A DNA stretch of 64,000 nt. Origin: an uncultured Poribacteria bacterium (GTDB lineage: Bacteria > Poribacteria > WGA-4E > WGA-3G). The stretch is taken from positions 1,478,439 through 1,542,438 of the forward strand of contig OX639992.1 of NCBI GenBank assembly GCA_951828515.1, in the 5' to 3' direction. The translations under genes and the position numbers were made by a program. The notes beneath the pieces were generated by a model that searched no databases, was not told the origin of the DNA, and worked only from the letters and a program-made list of their open reading frames with translations. Shown here piece after piece: positions 28,893 through 44,134 of this stretch; the stretch's first letter is position 1, and each line of letters opens with the position of its first letter.

Positions 28893-28920
28893 CACTATAG
28901 GACTGTCTCAAGTGACGCAG

Positions 28921-29187
28921 GCATCGCGAGCCGGAGCTCGCTCCTACAAGAGGTCGGGAATCGGAGTTCCCTCCTACAAGAGGTCGGGAATCGGAGTTCC
29001 CTCCTACAAGAGGTCGGGAATCGGAGTTCCCTCCTACAAGAGGTCGGGAATCGGAGTTCCCTCCTACAAGAGGTCGGGAATCGGAGTTCCCTCCTACAAG
29101 AGGTCGGGAATCGGAGTTCCCTCCTACAAGAGGTCGGGAATCGGAGTTCCCTCCTACAAGAGGTCGGGAATCGGAGTTCCCTCCTAC
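28921..29187. repeat. Perfect 30-bp tandem array (8 identical-phase units plus one variant)
   Basis: Units of exactly 30 bp begin at 28951 and repeat through 29187, each AGGTCGGGAATCGGAGTTCC followed by CTCCTACAAG. A variant unit with GCGAGCCGGAGCTCGC stands first at 28921. The units are identical apart from the last, which ends at the stop codon of the neighbouring minus-strand gene. GGGAA/TTCCC inside each unit can form a short stem. There are no spacers, so it is not a CRISPR array. Because 30 is divisible by 3, a spurious frame reading GIGVPSYKRS repeats crosses it. Confidence 0.95.
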
Positions 29188-31880
29188 CGAAGCGTTAGCA
29201 TGTTGATGAAAAGGCGATACGCACCCGCTACACCTGCTGGAAGCTGCCTATAAAAAGCGTAAGCGGCATAGGTGTAAGTGCCTTGTCCGTATTTCGCAGT
29301 GAGGAATCCGCCGTGTTGGGGTTCCTGCTCACGGTCGTTGCATGTGAGGAGTGCCTGATAGTTTGTGTCCCATTCGGTAAGGAATTTAGAACCGCGCTCC
29401 TCAACCCATCCATCGAAATCAGCCGCTGTAATCTGATTCGGATGTTGGAAGATCGGGTTATCTGGCATTAAAATGGTTACCTGTGCATCCTCTTCGGAGA
29501 CCTCCTCCGGTCGTCTGCCCATCGTATAAGGATAGGGACCAAAAGGCGCGGCATCAAATTCTGGGGTCTGATATTGAACGATGAGGTTGCCACCTTTATG
29601 CACGTAATCGAGGAGTCTGCTGTTATAGGCAATCAGATCCCGACGAACGGCATACGCTCGGATACCAACGAGAATCGTCCCAAACCGATTCAGATCACCG
29701 GTGCGAAGTTCCTCTCTATCCAACATCTCCACGTCGATACCGATTTGTTGTAGTGCCTCAGGTACCCTGTCGCCTACCCCCATGATATACCCAACGCTCA
29801 AATTCGATGGGACTTTGAGCGGGATGCTGCGAAGCGTCATGACAGCAGGGTAATATAGGTGTCGCGGTTCAAGGTCTGGATGATCAATCGCCTGATAGCC
29901 AGTCGTATACTCTTCGCCCTCATACTTCGCTATCGCTTGAATTGCGTAGTCTGTGCCGGCTTCAACATTCTTGGCAGATACCTGGAAAGTAAACGTTTTG
30001 CTTGCACCTTCGTGCGTAAAAGCGAAAGGTGCATCCTCAGGTGATGATTGCCATCCATCTGGCAGTTTGAGTGAAAGTGTCCCCTCTGCCTCACCCTTTA
30101 CGTTATTTAGCATCTCCACTGTTGTGGTAAACGTTGCTTCCCCACCTGCCATAGCAGATTCAGAGATTGGAATAACGCCGATACGCGGTGAAACAGATAG
30201 ACTGATAGCAGGGGCAACCGTTAGCAAACGTCGTCTTTCCCCCCACGGTCTATTAATTGAAACCGTTTGGGCAGACTGCGTCAGTGTAAAGTCCACCCCA
30301 TCTACACGATAGGTTATAACACCATTGACCTCAGGTAATGCGAAAGGGAGGAAGCGAGATTCTGGACGCTTCAGTGTATAGACAGCATCGTGATACTCAG
30401 AGGCACGGGTCCAATAAGGCTGCGTGTAATCTGCATCCCCTGCCACCTCCACCTCAAACACAATAGAGATGGGTTCGTTCGTCTGTATAGACATTATTCC
30501 TTTTCGATCCGAATCCTTCTGGACGCGATGTACACTCCAGCCTTCAGGAGCATGGAGCGAGGCATTGACGAACTTAGCGGCAATCGGAGCGGGATTCACC
30601 ATTCGCATTCCAATCGAAAATTTTTGACCGGGAATTGCGACGGCAAAGGTTTCAGATGAACGAGTTTCTGCTGTGGATTGAACCAGCACTTCTAAAGACA
30701 AACCGAGGGCATCGTTCGCAGCGGTCATAAATTCCTGTTCTTTATTCCGAAGCAGGAAAAGAAGATGCAACTGAGTGTTATCATCAAGGTCTATACGCTG
30801 GACGTTTTCGATCAAGCCACGCACCGTTTTTAACCCGCTTGCGAGATGCGGAACGACTGTCCATGGGTGGCGGGCATCATAATTGCGTATTGCGGCATCA
30901 ACGCTTTCCTGAAGTTGTGTGAATTCTGCGTCCAATGCAGATGTATCCGCTAACTTCGCCATGCCCGTAAGGGTCGTGTCAATCCCGTCAAAGAGACTCT
31001 CTTCAGGTTTCCCTTTCTCGGCGGTTAAGGTCGTATCCACTAAGCGCAATTCCGCAACGGCAGAGCCTTTGGAGGCGCGTGTTTGTCCGGCACCTTGTGA
31101 ACGTTGGAAACTGAGTCCTTGGCGTGCAATTTGAGCATAAGAGAGTCCCAATAAAGCATTGTATTCGCCTGTATCGATTTTTAGCACGGGTGTATCGGGA
31201 GTTTCGGTGGTATTGCGCCGCCATCTGGAGCGCGTGATATAGAGTTTCTTGGGTTGCCACGGTTGTAGTCCGGCTGCGAGGTGCTCCGGGAACCGATTCA
31301 CATCGCCTGCGACACGGAACGCCTCTAAAGTCACGACTCCAGATGCTTGATGGTGTCCGTGCCCATCTTGACGGTTGCCTTGAAACCGAGAGATGATAAC
31401 ATCTGGACGGTAGAGACGGATGAGGCGAACCATATCCTCCAAAAGCATCTGATAGTCCCATTTTTCCAGCGTTTCATCGAGTCGCTTGGAATACCCGAAA
31501 TCGACAGCACTGCTGAAAAAGAGGTCAATTCCATAGTAGCGCACAGCCGCGAGATGCTCCTCGGTTCGTATGATACCCAGTGCGTCAAACAATTCGGGTC
31601 CGATAAGGTTTGCCCCGCCCTCACCACGCGTCGTGGAATATAATCCAGTTCTGACACCGCGTGCGCGACTGAGCCACGTCAACAACGCGCCATTTTCGTC
31701 GTCAGGATGCGCGACGGTATGTAAAACGGTGGCAGTTGTCTGTAGGCGTTGTAAGGCGCGCCAAGTCTCTGAAGCGTTGGTTGCGCCCGCCATTTCTCCA
31801 GTGTCTGCCATTGCCATATTCCCCTCTACTATTCCGAACACCGCAAAAGCCAAAATTGATACTACGATTTTTTTTACCAT
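29184..31880 (-). CDS. PIG-L-type deacetylase with C-terminal NEW3/ThuA-like domains
   Basis: 898 residues from ATG 31880 (GGAG about 10 bases upstream), with a signal peptide MVKKIVVSILAFAVFGIVEG. The N-terminal PIG-L/LmbE domain has the zinc motif AHPDDE (58-62) and DGHGHHQASG. A central beta-sandwich region resembles NPCBM/NEW3 domains (MLNNVKGEAEGTLSLKLPDG). The C-terminal ~200 residues resemble a glutamine-amidotransferase/ThuA-like fold (LNRFGTILVGIRAYAVRRDL, HKGGNLIVQYQTPEF). Likely a periplasmic or exported N-deacetylase acting on glycans. Its stop codon coincides with the edge of the 30-bp array. Only 74 bp lie between its start and the isomerase stop. Confidence 0.85.
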   Translation of the reverse strand: MVKKIVVSILAFAVFGIVEGNMAMADTGEMAGATNASETWRALQRLQTTATVLHTVAHPDDENGALLTWLSRARGVRTGLYSTTRGEGGANLIGPELFDALGIIRTEEHLAAVRYYGIDLFFSSAVDFGYSKRLDETLEKWDYQMLLEDMVRLIRLYRPDVIISRFQGNRQDGHGHHQASGVVTLEAFRVAGDVNRFPEHLAAGLQPWQPKKLYITRSRWRRNTTETPDTPVLKIDTGEYNALLGLSYAQIARQGLSFQRSQGAGQTRASKGSAVAELRLVDTTLTAEKGKPEESLFDGIDTTLTGMAKLADTSALDAEFTQLQESVDAAIRNYDARHPWTVVPHLASGLKTVRGLIENVQRIDLDDNTQLHLLFLLRNKEQEFMTAANDALGLSLEVLVQSTAETRSSETFAVAIPGQKFSIGMRMVNPAPIAAKFVNASLHAPEGWSVHRVQKDSDRKGIMSIQTNEPISIVFEVEVAGDADYTQPYWTRASEYHDAVYTLKRPESRFLPFALPEVNGVITYRVDGVDFTLTQSAQTVSINRPWGERRRLLTVAPAISLSVSPRIGVIPISESAMAGGEATFTTTVEMLNNVKGEAEGTLSLKLPDGWQSSPEDAPFAFTHEGASKTFTFQVSAKNVEAGTDYAIQAIAKYEGEEYTTGYQAIDHPDLEPRHLYYPAVMTLRSIPLKVPSNLSVGYIMGVGDRVPEALQQIGIDVEMLDREELRTGDLNRFGTILVGIRAYAVRRDLIAYNSRLLDYVHKGGNLIVQYQTPEFDAAPFGPYPYTMGRRPEEVSEEDAQVTILMPDNPIFQHPNQITAADFDGWVEERGSKFLTEWDTNYQALLTCNDREQEPQHGGFLTAKYGQGTYTYAAYAFYRQLPAGVAGAYRLFINMLTLR

Positions 31881-34013: not shown

Positions 34014-35687
34014 TTACCCCTTCACTGCCTCTGCCACCAACTGCTCTAAATCTACCTCCCTGCCTTTGGGGGAGATCAACTTGTGGGTAGCTTCATGGGC
34101 AATCAGCTTACCATCCCTATCGATAAGCCACCGCGCTGGAATAGAACGAACATCATACTGTTGCGCGAGGGGACTTTGGCGTTCCAGTCCAGTGTAAATC
34201 TGCCGCCACGAGATGCCATTTTCCTGAAGGTAGTTGCGCAACTTCGTTTCATCGGTGTCAAGACTGACCCCGATGATGTCAAATCCCTGATCTTTATAGG
34301 TATCGTAAATCTCCTTGACTTTCAGCATCTCTCCGATGCAGAAACCATTCCAGACCGCCCAAAAATCGAGTAAGACGAATTTCCCATGATATTGCTGGAG
34401 CGAAATGGGTTTGCCGTCAAGATCTGTTGTAGAAAAATCAGGCGCAGGTTTTCCAAATTCTTCATAGGCATTGGCAAGCCTACGCGATAGACCGTGCTTT
34501 CCAACTTTCTTCGGTTTTTGTGCCGCAACTTCCACACCCACAGATGACTTGAGCATCTCCAAATATCGGGGTATCCGCTCACTGTGAGGTAGGCGATAAT
34601 CCGGATGAAATAAATGCTTACTGGGGAGATGCTCAATCATTTCCAATTCGGGGGTCAGCGTTAAGATATCCACAGAATCGGAATAATGCTGTCGGAGTTT
34701 CGTCGCCAAAACGCCCGCTGCTGCCCCTTTAGCACCTGTTTGTATCTCGGGCAACTCTCTCAACAGGACCCAGACGTTCACAAAGTACGTGTTGAGCAAA
34801 TTGATAATTTTCGGTGAGGAGAGCGGACCCGCTCTCAAGGCTTTGCCCGTCCCTCAGCAGGACTCATCGTCGAGGGCACCGAATAGAAGGACTGCATGAA
34901 TCGGGCGATTCGATGCTTTCGCGAGTTCAACCGCATCTTCAATCGGAGTCCACTCAACTTCAGCAAACTTGTAGAGTGCGTTTTGAAACTTCTTATCGGC
35001 TTCTTCCTCGGTGATGGCTACCTCCCAAACAATCGATTCTGGTTGCATCTCCGATACACTACAGAGTTCCATACGCGAAACAAACCCTATATCGTGAGTT
35101 TTAAAAGCACCGATATCTACATTGCTATTGCGGTTGGGAAGCGATAGCGTAAATTGGCAAATCGTTCCGCTGTCACGATTGATTATCAGATGCCCAGCAA
35201 ATTGTGCTGGCATCAAGTAGGCATCAATTGACGCGTCCAGTGTAAAGCGCGCGTGGATTCGGAAAACGATGTCAGCATATTCAGACGAAAGTGCCCGTAA
35301 GCACGCCTTCGCATCCTCCTGATCGGATGGAGTGGAGCCATAACGTGGAAGTCTCATTGTTGCGCTGGGGTGAAACTGGCGAAGTAACGGGAGAATCTCC
35401 TCCGGATCCAAGTCCCAAACATCTCCCACGTTAACAGTTGATGGCGGCAGAAAGACTTGGAAGTCCGCCGTGTTGTAGTTCTTCAGCGCATGTGCGGGTC
35501 CGGGATTGAACACCTCCAACCACTGTTCCCACGTCATATCTATCGGTTCTTTCCACTGTTCCTTGGCTCGATTAAACTTTTCTTTTGTCGATCGATGCAA
35601 GTTATTCGCTGTATTTTCAATCGGATCCCAATGTGCTTCTATCTGCACACCTGCTGGACTGCGAAGAGTGTTGCTAAAGTCTATCAC
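34014..35687 (-). CDS. Selenoprotein N-like protein fused to a TlpA-type thioredoxin domain (in-frame UGA = Sec278)
   Basis: One frame of 557 residues from GTG 35687 (AGGAGG upstream) to 34014, with a UGA at 34856-34854. The context FGALDDESC-UGA-GTGKALRAGPLSSPKIIN matches the SC-Sec-G motif region of animal selenoprotein N (ALDDQSC-U-GSG), and the frame continues with conserved-looking sequence (LLNTYFVNVWVLLRELPE). A near-ideal bacterial SECIS hairpin follows the UGA. The last ~170 residues are a TlpA-like thioredoxin (KPAPDFSTTDLDGKPISLQQ, GFDIIGVSLDTDETKL), but the active site reads WAVWNGFC, lacking the first Cys. Redox function is therefore expected at Cys277-Sec278. Without recoding it would be two truncated proteins. 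Confidence 0.88.
34819..34836 (-). promoter_or_regulatory. Bacterial SECIS element of the selenoprotein N-like gene
   Basis: On the minus strand GAGAGCG-GGTC-CGCTCTC is a 7-bp perfect stem with a GGUC loop, the same loop sequence as the E. coli formate dehydrogenase SECIS. The loop begins 24 bases after the UGA, inside the usual 16-37 base window. Confidence 0.85.
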
Positions 35688-36010: not shown

Positions 36011-38347
36011 CTATTGGTTTGTGGATTTGCCCTTGAGTGCTTCCACTACAAGCGGTTCTAAATCTTCACCTCTCGCCTTATGCGAAATTAATTTGCCATC
36101 TCTGTCAATAAGCCACGGTGCTGGGACACCCGTAATTTCATACTGCTGTGCGAGTGGATCGTCCTTCCATACTGCACCACTGCAAATCTGTCGCCACTGG
36201 ATATCGTTCTCTTTAAGGTAGTCCCGCAGTGCCGCTTCCTCATCATCAAGACTGACACCGATGATGTCAAACCCCTGGTCCTTATAGGTATTATAGACTC
36301 TTTTGAGATTCGGCATTTCGTCAATGCAGAAACCACACCACACTCCCCAAAAGTCGAGCAAGACAACTTTTCCACGATAGCCCTGAAGCGAAATCGGATT
36401 CCCATCAAGGTCGGTTGCTGAAAAGTCTGTCACAGGTTTTCCCCACAATTCGTACTTGGGATCAGCCTTGCGGTCATACACGTCGGCGAGTTCAATATTT
36501 CCTAACTTCCTATGAATGTAAGCAAGTCTCCAGAGGATAGGTTCCGCGTCTGGATGCTGCTGCTCCGCCTCCTTAAAAATCTCAAGCAGATCCTCATATC
36601 GCTCGGTCCTCACAAGCACATCAAACAGCACTCGATAAGAATCAAGGTCTGTTGTCATGTGTGACTTGAGACGCGCAATGAGGGCATTTGCAGATTGTTC
36701 GTTTCCTACTTTGGTATAGAGTCCGACAAGCCGTGGATAGATCTCAAAGAAACGAGGGTCATCCGGGTGTCGCTCAAGTGCCTCTTCAAAAGCAGCGATA
36801 GCCGCTTCGTGGCTACCATACATATCTTCTGGCGTGAATTCCCAAACATGAGATGAAGGATATACCTTAAAGGAAAAACTTAAATTTAGGCAGTCAAAGG
36901 GTTGATTTTCATGATGCCGACAACGGACAAGCGGTATGGCATCACCATACACTTCGCGTTGTTGAGCTTTCTCCTCTCGGTATTCGGGGTGGAACTGGTA
37001 GCCATAACTCACGGGCATTTTTGGGTCTGCATTGTGAGAAAAGATTGGCTTGCCACTCCCTTCATCTGCCGGACACAACAGGCTTGCATTTGACAGATAT
37101 TTCGGATGAAGCTCCGAGAGCCACTCAGGAAAATTACCGTGTTCTTTCTTATAGGTTTCAATCGCCTTGCCAATTTCGACCAGATGTTGCTTGCAGATTC
37201 CAATGTTTTTGTCAGCCTGCGATGGCTTTGTAGTTTCATCAGAACGATTCTCGTTCGGTATTGATTGAGACATGGATACCTCCTGAATTTGCTGGTTGAG
37301 TGTTTCCTCTGGGTTAACCGCTTGTGCCAAACGTATGGCACCCATCGGGACGGCAAAACAGATGAAGACGAGCAGTCCAATTCCCGCGGTAACTTTCGTC
37401 ACAGGATGCCGATTCAGATTTTTGGCGAGAACAGTTCGGAGTCGTCCTTCAATCTTTGAAGAACGCGCTATCGCCACAGCCGCTCTCGAAGTCACCTTTG
37501 CAATTTTCACGTTGCGTGTAATATCAAGCAGATGTTGCGCGTAGTCGGTTGATCGATACCCAGCGTTTAGTACATGGTCGTCGCATGCTTGCTCTGCTTC
37601 TATCCGCATCCGATACGTCGCAAACCACACAAGCGGATTGAACCAGTAGACTGCGCACGTTGTCTGTGCAATCGTTTGCACCACCCAATCCCATCGTTTG
37701 ATATGCGCCAATTCGTGGAGCAGAACAGCACGGAGCCGCTCAATTTGCCAATGATTTGCATCAACCGGTAGCAAAATCACAGGATGTAAAAAACCCCACA
37801 CCATCGGTACTGTCATCCTGTTGCTGAGACGGACACTGGCGCGTCGACTCCAATTAGATCGTAACTCCTCGGCAGCACGGCTAAAGTTGCTACCACGAGC
37901 AGAGATATGCCAGACAGCGCCGATTCCGACAACCAAACGGATAAGAAGAAACAGACCGACCCCTGTCCAGACTATTGCTATCCAGTCAGTCCAATATAGT
38001 GTAGTAAAGGGAGCACTCTGATCGGTCCCGGGATCGGGTTGCGGTGGCGTCAATGTAATTGGTATAGACGACACCGACTCTGTTGACAATTGGATCGGTG
38101 CCCTTGAAACGGGTATTTCCGGGAGGATATCGAGTTCCCACTTTGGGAGCACGAGCGAAAGCAGCGGGATGATGAGGCATCCGACGATCGCCATGCTCCA
38201 GACGAAACCGCGCATCGCCGCCGATCTGCGACGGAGGCAGAACGCGAATACACCCGCAACGGCGAAAATCACGAAACTTTTCATCGTCGTGTCCGCGAGA
38301 AATTTCAGCAATGGGTCTGCATAGAGTGCCTCAACAAATCGGATCAT
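36011..38347 (-). CDS. BlaR1/M56-family sensor peptidase fused to TPR and TlpA-like thioredoxin domains
   Basis: 778 residues. The N-terminal M56 (BlaR1/MecR1) part has four predicted membrane helices (about 24-38, 50-66, 119-146, 321-338) and the zinc site HELAH (211-215) with Glu251 in RIEAEQACDD. A linker resembling pseudopilin-like (DUF1559) segments follows (ICKQHLVEIGKAIETYKKEH, CPADEG), then TPRs, and a TlpA-like thioredoxin with WCGFC (Cys671, Cys674). It replaces the usual beta-lactam-binding sensor domain. It overlaps the blaI-like gene by 4 bp (ATGA). Probably senses periplasmic redox or envelope state and cleaves the repressor. Confidence 0.88.
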   Translation of the reverse strand: MIRFVEALYADPLLKFLADTTMKSFVIFAVAGVFAFCLRRRSAAMRGFVWSMAIVGCLIIPLLSLVLPKWELDILPEIPVSRAPIQLSTESVSSIPITLTPPQPDPGTDQSAPFTTLYWTDWIAIVWTGVGLFLLIRLVVGIGAVWHISARGSNFSRAAEELRSNWSRRASVRLSNRMTVPMVWGFLHPVILLPVDANHWQIERLRAVLLHELAHIKRWDWVVQTIAQTTCAVYWFNPLVWFATYRMRIEAEQACDDHVLNAGYRSTDYAQHLLDITRNVKIAKVTSRAAVAIARSSKIEGRLRTVLAKNLNRHPVTKVTAGIGLLVFICFAVPMGAIRLAQAVNPEETLNQQIQEVSMSQSIPNENRSDETTKPSQADKNIGICKQHLVEIGKAIETYKKEHGNFPEWLSELHPKYLSNASLLCPADEGSGKPIFSHNADPKMPVSYGYQFHPEYREEKAQQREVYGDAIPLVRCRHHENQPFDCLNLSFSFKVYPSSHVWEFTPEDMYGSHEAAIAAFEEALERHPDDPRFFEIYPRLVGLYTKVGNEQSANALIARLKSHMTTDLDSYRVLFDVLVRTERYEDLLEIFKEAEQQHPDAEPILWRLAYIHRKLGNIELADVYDRKADPKYELWGKPVTDFSATDLDGNPISLQGYRGKVVLLDFWGVWCGFCIDEMPNLKRVYNTYKDQGFDIIGVSLDDEEAALRDYLKENDIQWRQICSGAVWKDDPLAQQYEITGVPAPWLIDRDGKLISHKARGEDLEPLVVEALKGKSTNQ

Positions 38348-38733
38348 GATGAAGGGTCTCCTTTTTTCGCTTGCTCAATGAGTTGGCTTAAACGGTCAAG
38401 CTCCTCATCCGAGAGATCAGCGTCGGAAATCAATGTCATGACCGTCTTCTCAATGGACTTATCAAAAAACGTCTGAAAAATCTGTTTGAGTGCGGAACGT
38501 CCCGCCAGATGGCGTGGTTGCATCGGACGGTAGATGTAGCGTCTGCCTTTTTTCTCGTGGGTGAGATACCCCTTCTCCTCCAAAATCCGCAACAGTGCTC
38601 GAACTGTAGAGTAACTTGGTGGGTCGGGAAGGTCTTCAAGAACATCGGCAACGGAAACGCGACCGCGTTGGTAGACAATATCCATGATTTGACGCTCCCG
38701 GCGACTCAGTTTGATGTTTCGGTAATCTTCCAT
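38344..38733 (-). CDS. BlaI/MecI-family transcriptional repressor
   Basis: 129 residues. Winged-helix domain LSRRERQIMDIVYQRGRVSV, then YSTVRALLRILEEKGYLTHE, with the C-terminal helical dimerisation region (SALKQIFQTFFDKSIEKTVM). AGAGGTGACAAA precedes ATG 38733. It overlaps the M56 gene, the classic repressor-sensor pair. Two inverted repeats in its promoter are likely its own operators. Confidence 0.93.
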   Translation of the reverse strand: MEDYRNIKLSRRERQIMDIVYQRGRVSVADVLEDLPDPPSYSTVRALLRILEEKGYLTHEKKGRRYIYRPMQPRHLAGRSALKQIFQTFFDKSIEKTVMTLISDADLSDEELDRLSQLIEQAKKGDPSS

Positions 38734-39015: not shown

Positions 39016-40446
39016 TTAGACTTCAACGCGCACAAAAGCGAGATACGCACCCGCGAACAATACTGCAAAAAATAGGAGTAATAACAGAATGTCCGTAGCT
39101 GCAGCGGTGTAGGCACCCCTGAAACTGATGTGATCTTCAAATTTTGGAATTGATTCAAAGCGCACTGGCTTTTGTGAGGTGCCCTCCTTGGAACCGATTG
39201 CGTGTGGACTCTCTGAATCCGCATGATCGGTTTCGATGAGAAACGCCATGAATTCATCGGCATATCGGCGCACTTGCTTCAAGAATTGAACATGCCGTGT
39301 GAAACCGGTCCCAGCAAGAGATTCAATGGCGTATCGGACACTTGACGCAGGCGATATACGGGTTATGGATCTCGCGAGTCGAATTTGAGCAATTTGAGCG
39401 TCTAAGTGCTCCTCGTTCAATCTCTCGTTGTCTCTTGCATCCTCAGTGAGGTATTTCGACCACAATAATGTTCCCTCCGTTGCTGGAATCTCTCGCGAAG
39501 GTATTTTGCGCCCAAGTTCGTCGTACTGTTGATAAAAATTGTTGGACAGATGCTGCCGACGGGCGGCGAGTTCGTTACGGGTCATTGTCGGTTGTAAGCC
39601 ACTGGTAAGCGCGCCGGTTGTAGAGGGCAGCAGGACGACCCAAACAACCCAAATTAGTAAGAGAATCGTGAGACTCGATGACGAATTGCTCACGCGAGAG
39701 GATATGAGTAGCCCCAGTCCAAGGAAGATTGACACGTAAACAAAAGCGATGCAGATAATGACTCCCAATCGTCCGCACTCGCTTGCTCCCAGTGGAATAC
39801 TTCCCGACGTATAAAGTAGAAAAAGGTTAATTAACGCGGCAATTAAAAAAGGGATACTGATAGTTAGCAATGCTGCCAGAAACTTGCTTACCAATACGGT
39901 GCTGCGTGAAACACTATTGGAGAGTGTCAAGCGCAAGGTGCCTCGTTCTCGGTCCGAAGATATCGCGTCGAAAGTAAATAGGATGGCAATCAAACTCAGC
40001 ACGATAGAGACGATAGTATTCCAATCAACATTTGTATAATCCGGCATAATATTCCATAGGTTTGGATCGGATTGCGGGTATTCCATTCGCCATAGCGTTC
40101 TGATTGAAAAACGACTCGATATTAAGAACAGACCTCTGCCAACTCCGTCAGCGGATTCAGGTATAAATGTTTCACCACCGTCCGCACAAAAGGAGAGTGG
40201 AGAAGATTTTTTATAGAGCCTGCCGGGTCCTTCCGTAAATAGGTTATAAACACTGTCCGCGTTGGATCTCATTTTATCCAAAGACGCTGAAACCTTTTTT
40301 TGATATGCCGTTGATTGCGCCTCGTATTCGCCAAGATACCCAATTGCGTTGACGAGCATCAGTGCGATAAACAATACCGTTGTAAAGGCAAATCGCAGAC
40401 TGTTCAGATGGTCGTAAAGTTCACGCTTTGTAATGTGCCAAATCAT
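39016..40446 (-). CDS. ABC-2-type transporter permease
   Basis: 476 residues from ATG 40446, where MIWHITKRELYDHLNSLRFA is the usual permease start. The frame is open to 40485, but that part is CTGAC-type repeat; neither start has a clear Shine-Dalgarno sequence. One N-terminal membrane helix, a ~110-residue extracytoplasmic loop, a cluster of about five helices (IVSIVLSLIAILFTFDAISS, FLAALLTISIPFLIAALINL, LTILLLIWVVWVVLLPSTTG), a second soluble loop and a final helix (DILLLLLFFAVLFAGAYLAF). The DAISSDRERGTLRL motif is typical of ABC-2 permeases. Pairs with the next gene; no ATPase gene is adjacent. Confidence 0.85.
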   Translation of the reverse strand: MIWHITKRELYDHLNSLRFAFTTVLFIALMLVNAIGYLGEYEAQSTAYQKKVSASLDKMRSNADSVYNLFTEGPGRLYKKSSPLSFCADGGETFIPESADGVGRGLFLISSRFSIRTLWRMEYPQSDPNLWNIMPDYTNVDWNTIVSIVLSLIAILFTFDAISSDRERGTLRLTLSNSVSRSTVLVSKFLAALLTISIPFLIAALINLFLLYTSGSIPLGASECGRLGVIICIAFVYVSIFLGLGLLISSRVSNSSSSLTILLLIWVVWVVLLPSTTGALTSGLQPTMTRNELAARRQHLSNNFYQQYDELGRKIPSREIPATEGTLLWSKYLTEDARDNERLNEEHLDAQIAQIRLARSITRISPASSVRYAIESLAGTGFTRHVQFLKQVRRYADEFMAFLIETDHADSESPHAIGSKEGTSQKPVRFESIPKFEDHISFRGAYTAAATDILLLLLFFAVLFAGAYLAFVRVEV

Positions 40447-40532
40447 TTTATTAGTTGTCGGTTGTCGGCTATCGGCTGTCAGCAAGAATGGCTGTAGGTT
40501 TCTTTGCCGACTGCTGATTGCTGAGTGCTAAT
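40447..40532. repeat. CTGAC-type interspersed repeat between permease genes
   Basis: GTCGGCTATCGGCTGTCAGC at the left and GACTGCTGATTGCTGAGTGC at the right form a long imperfect hairpin around GGTTTCTTTGCC. It fills the whole gap between two co-oriented permease genes and displaces the RBS of the downstream one. Confidence 0.6.
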
Positions 40533-42044
40533 TTATACTTCTTGCCGCACGAAGATTAAAAATGTTGTCATAAACAGCACAACGTTAATGAGTAGCAGAC
40601 ACGCAATGTCACCGCTTGCGTGCTGTATGCCCTTCCATATATCCCTCCGACGATAAGAAAACCGTGGTAAATCGTTCCAATCGACTTCTCCTTGGTCAAC
40701 AGCGAACCATTTCCGAGAAGAAAAAGCCTTCTTATCATAGAAATAATCGATAATCGTTTGCCGATACCGCTGGACTGCTGTGATAAAATCCTCAATACCG
40801 TGGAAATCTGTTCCTGCCCACGCCTCGGTTGCGAAGTCATACATCGCTGTCGGTGAGAAACGCATCAGATTTTTCGCCACATTCGCTTTGTGAACGTAGA
40901 CTTGATCCAAAGCTTTTTGTCGAATTTGCCACGTCCTTTCTGCTGCGCGAATTCGTCGCGGCTCCGAGAATTGAAAGTAAGCTTTGACATGAGGCATCAG
41001 GGGTTCTGCCTCTGGCTTGATGCGAATACTGCGAATTTCTGCCTTAGAATACTTGAGCGTCGTCGGATCTGAAATATGAGGAGCCCCCCAACTTCCTGAA
41101 TAAAGTATATTGTCATTCAAGTCTTCCCCTTCAATTGCATCGTTCCTTAAAAAATCCATTCGCTCTCTTTCAAAACTTTCCCAGATCTGCTCAATTTCAC
41201 GATAAGAGGATTTCAATTGAGAAGGGGTCTGCCAAAGCCGATTGACCGAGAATACAATGAGACTTGGATAGATAAGGACCAGGGTGCTCCATATCACCAT
41301 TGACACCATGAGGGCAGTCGCGGTTCGGCGTGTGATTGCCGAGATTAACAATCCTATAAGATAAAAAGCGGAGAGATATATGATTGAGGTAAGTAAAATA
41401 CCACCAATCCGGAGCCAATCATCTCCCGTGAGCAAAATCGACCCAGATACAGAAAATAGCATGAGTGCGAGTAGCAAACTCATGACTACAGGAAGCGTCA
41501 GACAAGTCAGCGCACTGATATACTTTGCCAGCAGAATAACGGGACGACTGACGGGGTTTGCCATCGTCAAACGGAGCGTGCCTGCTTCCCGTTCCCCAGC
41601 GATTGCATCGTGGGCGAAAAGCAGTGCCAGTAAACTGAGAATTACCTGAAAAATCAGAACTAAATCGACGCTGGAAAACAGGTTGAGGAAAGGATTATCG
41701 GCACTGTGTGATAGGGTATCCCAAAGGGTTGGAACAAGGGTATGCCTGACAGTGATAGAGTTGCCGATCCGTCGATCTAAACCTGCATTGAAAATGCTCA
41801 GTGGGTTGGGGGGTCGGTCTATGCGAATTCCTCCATCTATCTCCGAATAAGTCCTTGTTCTTCTTAAAAACCTCTGACGGTGTTCCTTCACTGCGGTATC
41901 GTAACTGGTCAGACGGCGTTCGTAATCGGCAATTAAGACAACGGTATTCGCAACCACCAACGACAGTGTAACGACCATCGCAACGAGAAACCGAAAGGTC
42001 ATAAGGTTGGCGAGCAATTCTCGCCGAACGAGAATCAGAAACAT
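40533..42044 (-). CDS. ABC-2-type transporter permease
   Basis: 503 residues with the same architecture as its neighbour: start MFLILVRRELLANLMTFRFL, membrane helix (VAMVVTLSLVVANTVVLIAD), soluble loop, helices (DLVLIFQVILSLLALLFAHD, YISALTCLTLPVVMSLLLAL, ALMVSMVIWSTLVLIYPSLI), second loop and a last helix (IACLLLINVVLFMTTFLIFV). The motif HDAIAGEREAGTLRL matches the neighbour. AGGTGG precedes ATG 42044, only 11 bp after the stop of the sigma-factor fusion, so the three genes look like one operon. The transported substrate is unknown. Confidence 0.87.
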   Translation of the reverse strand: MFLILVRRELLANLMTFRFLVAMVVTLSLVVANTVVLIADYERRLTSYDTAVKEHRQRFLRRTRTYSEIDGGIRIDRPPNPLSIFNAGLDRRIGNSITVRHTLVPTLWDTLSHSADNPFLNLFSSVDLVLIFQVILSLLALLFAHDAIAGEREAGTLRLTMANPVSRPVILLAKYISALTCLTLPVVMSLLLALMLFSVSGSILLTGDDWLRIGGILLTSIIYLSAFYLIGLLISAITRRTATALMVSMVIWSTLVLIYPSLIVFSVNRLWQTPSQLKSSYREIEQIWESFERERMDFLRNDAIEGEDLNDNILYSGSWGAPHISDPTTLKYSKAEIRSIRIKPEAEPLMPHVKAYFQFSEPRRIRAAERTWQIRQKALDQVYVHKANVAKNLMRFSPTAMYDFATEAWAGTDFHGIEDFITAVQRYRQTIIDYFYDKKAFSSRKWFAVDQGEVDWNDLPRFSYRRRDIWKGIQHASGDIACLLLINVVLFMTTFLIFVRQEV

Positions 42045-42055
42045 GGTATTACCAC

Positions 42056-44134
42056 CTAATCCGACAGGAGTGCTTCAATCATCCAAATTAACGGCTGACC
42101 GCCGATGAGATCCAGACCTATAAAACTATACTGCCAATTTCCGTCTTTATCAATCAAGATAAAAGAAGGGATTCTTTCAATCTGATACGTCTTCTTCACC
42201 TGCCGATGCGGGTCAAGTAGAACGGGCCAGGGGGGTTGATACTGCTCTAAAAACTCCCGAACTTTTTGAGGGGCTTCACCATCAGTGATGCTCCAGATGA
42301 CGACATCATCAACGTTGCTGAATCGCTCGTAGACCCCTTCAACTTCCGGAATCACTATGTCGCCCCCATACAATGAGACTCCAACATCAAGCAACACAAC
42401 CTTACCAGACATCACCGATAATGTGTAGGTCTCACCTTTCAACGTTTTCAAACGAAAATCCGTTGCTTTCTTATTCAATCCGTTGCCGATGAGTTTCTGA
42501 CGGATCTTTTTAAGATCAGCATCTTCTCGAATCCGGTATTCCGCTTCAGTGTCCTTGAGGAAAGTCTCAAGCGCATCGGTAGTTTCTCCGCGTTTTATTT
42601 GACGATAGAGGCGTTCCAAGCCCTTCCGACTTTCCACCCGAGGCATAGGCACAAAGTGTGGGTCGGCGAAGTCATAGTAATGCCTTACCTTCTCAAGGCG
42701 AGGCATAGGGGCAAAATATGCATCGGCGTAGTAACGCCTCGCTTTCTCATAGTCTCCCATTCCTTCCGCTGACCGTCCCAACATATAGAAGTAATTTATG
42801 CTATCCTCATTGAATCTTGCCCAGAGGGATTCCAAATAATCTGGAGCGTTTGCGACAAGCCCAGCATGCGATTCTCTCCATCGTTCTTGCTGGAGGTAGA
42901 TTTCACAGCGCAAGCGCGAGATGTTCTTGTGCTCATCTTCGACAGATCCGTTGTTGTTTTCAACAAGCCACTTCTGTTCTTCTTCCTCTCCTAATCGGAT
43001 TTCAGCGCGCTCTAAAGTTTCCAACGCTTTGTCCAATCGGTTGTTAAACTTCAGTCGATATTTAACCGCTGCGGTATAAGCCCAACCGAACCACTGCTGT
43101 GTCTCCTGGCAATAAGAGAGATGTGTCTTCAAACATCCGTCAATAAGTTCATTAAGCTTGTCATCATTCGCCAGAGAACGATCCGCTTCTGCTAACCGTA
43201 GTAGTTCTTTATACGCTGACCAATACCAGGATAATATTGGGGCGTTCGAGACAGTAAATTCATCAATGACACGCTGATTATAGTGCCATTTTTGATGGGC
43301 ATCTTCGCTCCGTTCAGCTAACCCAAACAACGCTGCCAGATAAACTTCGGTTTTAGGGTGCTGTAACATCTTACCAAACAGACTGTCAGGGACATTCTTT
43401 GCACGACCCGGAAGTTCCATATATCCCCAGTAGACAGTGTTTAACAACTCCTGAGTTTCTGGATGTTTCCTCAGCAGCGTTTCGATTTCAGGGAGAACCT
43501 TCTTCCTTGCGTCCTCCTCTGAAAACGTTTCGGCTATGCGTCTCCATCGAGAATGATAACTTTCTAAATCCACAATCAATCCCTCCTGATCCACCTGTAA
43601 ACGCTTTCGCGCTCGATGCAGCCGACTCCTAATCGTGTTCACGGGTACATCTAAGAATTCGCCAATTTCCTTTGCTGGCATTTCACCGAGATAGTAAAGC
43701 GTCATCACCGTGCGTTCACCCTCCGGCAGTTTTTCCAGAAGTTTTTCGACGATTTCATAACGACGTTCGGTCGCTTCTGATTCTCGCTGTTCCGATACAT
43801 ACCGCTCATAGGTTAAGTTATCTATTTCTTTCACAGATGCGTCATTCAGTGATTGCAGCGCAGGTCTTTGTTTTCGCATCCAAGCAATACATAGCCGATT
43901 CGCAATGACATAGACCCATCCAGCAAATTGATTGGGATCTCTGAGTGTCGAAAGTTTTTCGTATGCCTGGAGGAAGGTGTCTTGTGTAATTTCTTCAGCA
44001 TAGTGAAAATCTCCGATCTTCCGCCACACAAGGGCATGAACGCTTTTTTGATACTTCCGGACTAAAGTGTTGAATGCTTCGCTGTCGCCTGACAAAACTT
44101 TGCGAATCAACTGAACATCATCTTCTCTTTCCAC
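42056..44134 (-). CDS. ECF sigma factor fused to TPR-like and degenerate thioredoxin domains
   Basis: 692 residues. Sigma-2 (about 15-85) has ALVWRKIGDFHYAEEITQDT; sigma-4 (about 126-180) has RTVMTLYYLGEMPAKEIGEF and VNTIRSRLHRARKRL. About 330 residues of helical TPR-like repeats follow, then a TlpA-like thioredoxin fold (GKVVLLDVGVSLYGGDIVIP, PWPVLLDPHRQVKKTYQIER, IPSFILIDKDGNWQYSFIG) with no CxxC. No membrane helix is seen, so it should be cytoplasmic. The start is GTG 44134 with GGAGGG six bases upstream. It leads an operon with two ABC permeases, which it may regulate. Confidence 0.88.
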   Translation of the reverse strand: MEREDDVQLIRKVLSGDSEAFNTLVRKYQKSVHALVWRKIGDFHYAEEITQDTFLQAYEKLSTLRDPNQFAGWVYVIANRLCIAWMRKQRPALQSLNDASVKEIDNLTYERYVSEQRESEATERRYEIVEKLLEKLPEGERTVMTLYYLGEMPAKEIGEFLDVPVNTIRSRLHRARKRLQVDQEGLIVDLESYHSRWRRIAETFSEEDARKKVLPEIETLLRKHPETQELLNTVYWGYMELPGRAKNVPDSLFGKMLQHPKTEVYLAALFGLAERSEDAHQKWHYNQRVIDEFTVSNAPILSWYWSAYKELLRLAEADRSLANDDKLNELIDGCLKTHLSYCQETQQWFGWAYTAAVKYRLKFNNRLDKALETLERAEIRLGEEEEQKWLVENNNGSVEDEHKNISRLRCEIYLQQERWRESHAGLVANAPDYLESLWARFNEDSINYFYMLGRSAEGMGDYEKARRYYADAYFAPMPRLEKVRHYYDFADPHFVPMPRVESRKGLERLYRQIKRGETTDALETFLKDTEAEYRIREDADLKKIRQKLIGNGLNKKATDFRLKTLKGETYTLSVMSGKVVLLDVGVSLYGGDIVIPEVEGVYERFSNVDDVVIWSITDGEAPQKVREFLEQYQPPWPVLLDPHRQVKKTYQIERIPSFILIDKDGNWQYSFIGLDLIGGQPLIWMIEALLSD

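Follow-up and report, generated by a model that had tools for sequence, protein, structure and literature searches.

The window analysed here is a stretch of 64,000 nucleotides from a Candidatus Poribacteria genome that consists of a single 5.85-Mb contig. On the minus strand of the window, a selenoprotein N (SelN)-like gene occupies positions 34014..35687. It begins with a GTG codon at 35687-35685, preceded by an AGGAGG 12 nt upstream, and runs down to 34014 as one frame for a 557-aa selenoprotein when its in-frame UGA is read through. The gene comprises two minus-strand ORFs (34854-35687 and 34014-34838) that share a frame and are joined at a single TGA (34856-34854). This codon, number 278, is the sole stop in the read-through frame; its context is ALDDESC-U-GTGKALR, and the putative selenocysteine (Sec278) lies in the motif SCUG. 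The initial annotation had described two frames meeting at one UGA (DDESC-UGA-GTG), and the uninterrupted 557-aa read-through bears this out. The coordinates given there also hold, but no strand was given with them, and the gene lies on the minus strand, not on the plus strand. The gene structure with an in-frame UGA is thus confirmed, and the same read-through frame is kept in 20 orthologues with the same architecture. The insertion of Sec at UGA278 in vivo is an inference for which there is no experimental evidence.

A profile search of the 85 Poribacteria genomes found the SelN domain in 65, with up to 17 copies in each. In a wider search of 387 genomes, in which five candidates were scored per genome, only these 65 matched, and none of the 302 genomes outside Poribacteria did. 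A separate pattern scan of contigs could not match a UGA codon, so relatives outside Poribacteria may escape it. No SelN relatives were found on viral contigs or plasmids. Within the phylum, SelN is limited to three families of one order, and the bacterial proteins fall into two classes at about 35% identity. The window genome itself carries eight SelN selenoprotein genes, plus fragments. Tandem arrays of SelN genes exist, with seven UGA-containing copies within 13 kb at one locus (L080) and four of the eight genes of the window genome in one cluster (3.616-3.625 Mb).

Nearly every SelN match listed contains exactly one stop, a TGA, at the same codon. In 149 homologous copies read from DNA, the Sec position is occupied by UGA in 145 and by Gly in 4. 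Cys homologues were sought among the same 149 copies and none was found, so that the exchange of Sec for Cys at position 278, which had been proposed as a check, is not seen and Gly is the sole replacement. The motif around Sec is SCUG in 83, SCUA in 30 and ACUG in 26 of the 145 UGA copies; the window gene has SCUG. The four Gly forms show that Sec can be lost. A fifth Gly form was seen at L165, and the tree of SelN places the Gly forms near one another. The Gly codons in these copies (L161-L165) are GGA or GGC.

The UGA is followed by a hairpin of the bacterial SECIS type (34819..34836, minus strand) with the stem GAGAGCG/CGCUCUC and the loop GGUC (34829-34826). The 7-bp stem begins 17 nt past the UGA (34836-34819), and the loop starts at nt 28, counting from the U of UGA. 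This stem and loop had been recognized correctly in the initial annotation, but the spacing, which was said to be identical to that of E. coli formate dehydrogenase, is not: in E. coli fdhF, the SECIS loop starts at nt 22, and the loop of the window gene is therefore 6 nt further from the UGA. The hairpin region matched no Rfam family. Single-sequence folding of this region was not significant (z -1.07) and for this reason was dropped as evidence for the hairpin. Folded in isolation, the RNA has its energy minimum (-17.3 kcal/mol over 48 nt) in a different structure, one that involves the UGA itself; the SECIS hairpin becomes optimal (-11.5 kcal/mol) only once the first ~12-15 nt, which would be covered by the ribosome, are left out. 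As single-sequence folding is unremarkable, the evidence for the hairpin rests on the comparison of homologues.

A perfect stem is present in 133 of the 145 UGA copies, against 4.6 expected given each protein and the codon usage of the family, and all 145 are at most one pair short of it. Nucleotides 27-32, around the loop, read GGGUCC, AGGUGU, AGUUGU or close variants, with RGKU nearly invariant (G28 and U30 are each found in 144 of the 145). Compensatory changes convert C-G to U-A (L077), G-C to A-U (L074 and L167; in L074, for example, at two synonymous third positions) and G-C to C-G (L061 and L152). Covariation was tested on 81 distinct sequences of the second SelN class with 500 shuffles, five measures and a control in which the register was slid. 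On four of the five measures, none of the 500 shuffles came up to the real structure, which also exceeded each slid register on all five; for the remaining measure, the number of pairs changed on both sides, 5 of the 500 shuffles reached the real count. The shuffle tests are inflated by relatedness, whereas the slide control preserves it. Two of the Gly forms, L162 and L163, retain the stem, but their loop has changed from AGUU/AGGU to AACU, as expected if recognition by SelB no longer matters. These two copies are a small natural control for the SECIS loop. Judging from the aligned homologues, the hairpin downstream of the UGA is under RNA-level selection beyond coding. A covariance check had been suggested at the outset, and both covariation and stem conservation were found; orthologues with a stop and no hairpin, which would have refuted the proposal, were not encountered, since UGA and hairpin are kept together.

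Theoretically, the UGA could be a real stop, and the locus a split gene or pseudogene consisting of two separate ORFs. Standard ORF calling does yield two ORFs, and the downstream half offers a TTG of its own and holds a complete TlpA domain. However, a decayed or divided gene sits poorly with a single stop that is invariably TGA and falls on this codon in nearly all copies across 65 genomes, with the retention of UGA in 145 of 149 copies, with the selection on the hairpin, and with a similarity to animal selenoprotein N (SELENON) that runs across the UGA (see below). We therefore regard termination at this codon as highly improbable.

The window genome has the machinery required for Sec. There is one strong match to tRNA-Sec (78 bits), directly after the SelB gene, together with matches to SelA (594 bits) and SelD (359 bits). 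The absence of sel genes, which would have counted against the proposal, is thus not observed. The SelD match has its own in-frame TGA in the context CAG-U-ASK. This SelD (G000:C1:4977731-4978654; L176) is a selenoprotein in its own right (CAGUASK), and its UGA, too, is followed by a hairpin. Across the phylum, tRNA-Sec was found in 73 of the 85 Poribacteria genomes. It was without a match in 7 of the 65 SelN-positive genomes, probably owing to assembly gaps or strict filters. The arrangement of the SelN gene is the same as in other bacterial selenoproteins such as FdhF and SelD, in which the UGA is followed by a short stem with a G/U apical loop and decoding relies on SelA, SelB, tRNA-Sec and SelD.

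The relationship of the protein to SELENON was evaluated with a single animal sequence, a provisional version of one half of human SELENON that was not taken from a database. In BLASTP, the window protein aligns with this provisional sequence over 349 residues with 31% identity (167 bits, E 7e-51). A profile built from 20 bacterial copies scores the provisional sequence at 215 bits, while 1000 shuffles reach at most 4.4. The stretches FRIHAEF, PAQFTGH, NVD and GALDD-SCUG are shared, and they include the N-terminal part, which is not thioredoxin-like. In addition to the Cys-Sec pair, both proteins have a third conserved Cys, Cys129 in the window protein and Cys277 in the provisional human numbering, which is near-invariant in bacteria. 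The provisional numbering of Sec462 and Arg466 agrees with a published report (PMC12839072); Arg466, with Sec462, is the only position that was checked. Published variant positions by which this human sequence could be validated further were mostly not found. Human residues 315, 340 and 469, which are disease positions, correspond to Gly165, Asn189 and Arg285 of the window protein, all three of them completely or almost completely conserved among 73 bacterial sequences. The SC-Sec-G motif and SelN-like flanks noticed in the initial annotation are part of a much longer alignment, and the profile similarity to SELENON, whose absence would have refuted the proposal, is present, with the reservation that the human sequence is provisional.

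It might be argued that the protein is unrelated to SELENON and belongs to an independent thioredoxin-fold family that has converged on SCUG. The C-terminal part of SelN is indeed a common thioredoxin-like fold, and SCUG alone is short. Convergence of this kind would not account for a 349-residue alignment that includes the non-thioredoxin N-terminal part, nor for 215 bits as against the scores of the shuffles. Doubt about the kinship with SELENON remains only on account of the provisional human sequence, and we give an unrelated origin very little credence. We consider it very likely that the gene is a true bacterial member of the SELENON family, with UGA278 decoded as Sec within a selenol/thiol redox domain; the earlier reading of a bacterial SelN-like selenoprotein is supported.

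SELENON has been reported from animals and algae (PMC3473315, PMC7539508). The animal and algal proteins have the same SC-Sec-G context (GALDD-SCUG-GR/K..LR), a thioredoxin-like Sec domain and the conserved upstream Cys. They differ from the bacterial proteins in several respects. First, their SECIS is located in the 3'UTR, whereas that of bacterial SelN is in frame. Second, animal SELENON has an EF-hand and a membrane anchor, and the window copy lacks both: no EF-hand was detected in a Pfam scan (E<=1), and no N-terminal hydrophobic segment was seen by inspection. Some SelN paralogues do have such a segment, according to a crude hydropathy analysis. Third, bacterial SelN is multi-copy and is fused to TlpA, to an ECF sigma factor or to other C-terminal domains.

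The SelN domain of the window protein (residues 1-380; 34548..35687, minus strand) was delimited by alignments, an AlphaFold2 model and fold matches in the PDB. It is predicted to consist of a beta-rich N-terminal part and a thioredoxin-fold C-terminal part with Cys277-Sec278. The AlphaFold2 model of this domain alone, computed with 73 natural sequences, has a mean pLDDT of 92 and a pTM of 0.88. A first model, which included the TlpA domain, was discarded because its PDB matches were dominated by the poorly modelled TlpA domain. By sequence, SelN had no match in the PDB. By fold, the model matches DsbH-type thioredoxins, the ER protein Rp19, AGR3/AGR2 and the UAS domain. By inference from secondary structure, Cys277-Sec278 follow a central strand, at the place where the CxxC of DsbH/TXNDC12-type thioredoxins is located. 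The proteins of the DsbH, TXNDC12 (Rp19), AGR2-3 and UAS types share the fold of the Sec-bearing part of SelN. However, they contain CxxC where SelN has adjacent Cys and Sec, they are only about 11-23% identical to it, and the beta-rich N-terminal domain is additional in SelN.

The C-terminal part of the window protein is a TlpA/ResA-like (AhpC-TSA, Thioredoxin_8) domain (residues 412-529; 34101..34454, minus strand; Pfam 4.4e-20). It resembles the ResA/TlpA oxidoreductases, but its active site is degenerate (W446-N447-G-F-C450, or WNGFC), the first active-site Cys being replaced by Asn. The initial annotation had suggested that this domain could point to the redox partner of SelN, and it is conceivable that it is a reductase recycling SelN within the same polypeptide. 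The SelN-TlpA fusion is conserved in a single clade (support 99) of 20 genomes, and the second Cys of CxxC is kept. On the other hand, 20 of the 21 fusions have Asn or His in place of the first, nucleophilic Cys, meaning that ordinary CxxC chemistry has been lost, and the TlpA domain is missing from most SelN copies. The partner role is weakened accordingly and now seems unlikely. Since the first Cys is lost, the domain probably does not act as an ordinary disulfide reductase. Binding, regulation or monothiol chemistry is a more plausible role, the first two being our best guess. The next gene to SelN (36011..38347, minus strand) encodes a BlaR1-type M56 peptidase-TPR-TlpA protein (Pfam) with an intact WCGFC. 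By inference, it is a candidate electron donor, or else the source of the fused module.

A stronger clue to the function of SelN is provided by a second type of fusion. In L111-L114, one frame of about 700 aa encodes an ECF sigma factor, then a membrane helix, then a SelN domain with its UGA. The sigma part of the L111-type fusion matches Sigma70_r2 (3.8e-13) and Sigma70_r4 (1.3e-14); the ORF is at 1433-3538 in L111. These fusions form one clade, present in at least 4 Poribacteria genomes. Many other SelN copies carry a C-terminal domain of about 110 aa (DYTVVxIDTTAFxxGG..) without a match in Pfam, which is also the end of ECF-sigma-membrane-helix proteins encoded beside SelN. Among these SelN copies, at least some begin with a signal-like sequence. 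In the window genome, two ECF sigma-membrane-helix proteins (L169 6266-7591 and L171 10160-11503) have the C-terminal domain common to many SelN proteins. Based on the sigma part alone, 14 of 80 SelN loci have an ECF sigma gene no more than 2.5 kb away, four of these being the fusions, with no background rate available. A higher count of 48 of 80 was rejected as inflated, as SelN proteins themselves carry the C-terminal domain shared with the sigma proteins.

Beyond the adjacent peptidase gene, the minus strand of the window encodes a BlaI/MecI-type repressor (38344..38733; Penicillinase_R 1.4e-31), two transporter-like membrane proteins (39016..42044; recognized from their translations only, without a Pfam scan) and an ECF sigma-70 factor with a C-terminal redoxin (TlpA-like) domain (42056..44134; Sigma70_r4_2 3.7e-17, Redoxin 6.4e-12). 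A permease of the ABC-2 type (ABC2_membrane_2 matches), like the two transporter-like proteins, flanks the SelN locus L171. Modules of the sigma, transporter and TlpA kinds are seen repeatedly near SelN loci.

The gene structure, the conservation of UGA and hairpin, the Sec machinery, the family similarity and the fusions are established by these data, and a mechanism may be proposed on this basis. UGA278 would be decoded as Sec by SelB and tRNA-Sec with the help of the hairpin, which lies within the coding sequence just past the UGA. The Cys277-Sec278 selenylsulfide would then most likely reduce, or be switched by, disulfides or oxidants; this biochemistry is inferred without redox data. The near-invariant Cys129 may be a third redox residue. 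Poribacteria have multiplied the gene and placed the SelN domain in differing contexts: an exported form with the sigma-shared C-terminal domain, a cytoplasmic protein joined to a degenerate TlpA domain, as in the window copy, and the fusion of sigma factor, membrane helix and SelN. The last of these suggests a redox-sensing receptor, sensing itself being inferred, and a sensor function is an attractive idea for some members of the family at least. More specifically, extracytoplasmic SelN domains may be Sec redox receptors that control transcription through the membrane helix and the ECF sigma factor (L111-L114), an idea that we put forward only tentatively and hold to be rather less than an even prospect. 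If it were true, ECF sigma regulation would include a class based on selenoproteins, and this would suggest that SELENON is fundamentally a sensor of redox state and not an enzyme.

The origin of the bacterial genes raises the possibility that SELENON of a sponge host was transferred into a symbiont, its 3'UTR SECIS being replaced by a bacterial one. This is compatible with the gene being a genuine bacterial SELENON. Poribacteria are a phylum dominant in sponges (PMC3909097), SelN is present in a sponge genome (PMC3473315), and all named SelN matches are from Poribacteria, with none in the 302 genomes beyond the phylum. However, the bacterial family is deep, with its two divergent classes spread over three families of the order, and the data agree just as well with transfer from symbiont to host or with common inheritance followed by loss. 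Moreover, the only animal sequence in the tree is the provisional human one, on a very long branch. Transfer from a sponge is therefore possible and remains somewhat doubtful.

SelN is not listed among the 119 prokaryotic selenoprotein families of a 2026 inventory (PMC13188914), and it adds a family that this latest inventory is missing. We found no report of a bacterial SELENON in the open-access literature, although an earlier mention in subscription papers is not excluded; nor did we find an open-access paper combining Poribacteria and selenoproteins. What is new is the occurrence in bacteria of a family known from eukaryotes, together with its bacterial decoding, a large expansion and new fusions.

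Mutations in SELENON cause human congenital myopathies, and the chemistry of SELENON is still debated. The hundreds of bacterial Sec copies, with Cys never seen in those that were read, offer deep sequence variation for its study. Small soluble versions of SelN would be useful for structure determination and assays, and the sigma-factor and TlpA fusions hint at function. It is now possible to test directly where animal SELENON came from, including an exchange of genes between sponges and symbionts. Current annotation probably splits or truncates SelN genes. Elsewhere in the window, tandem 30-base repeats (SYKRSGIGVP) are present at ~28900-29200, between dehydrogenase-like and deacetylase-like genes.
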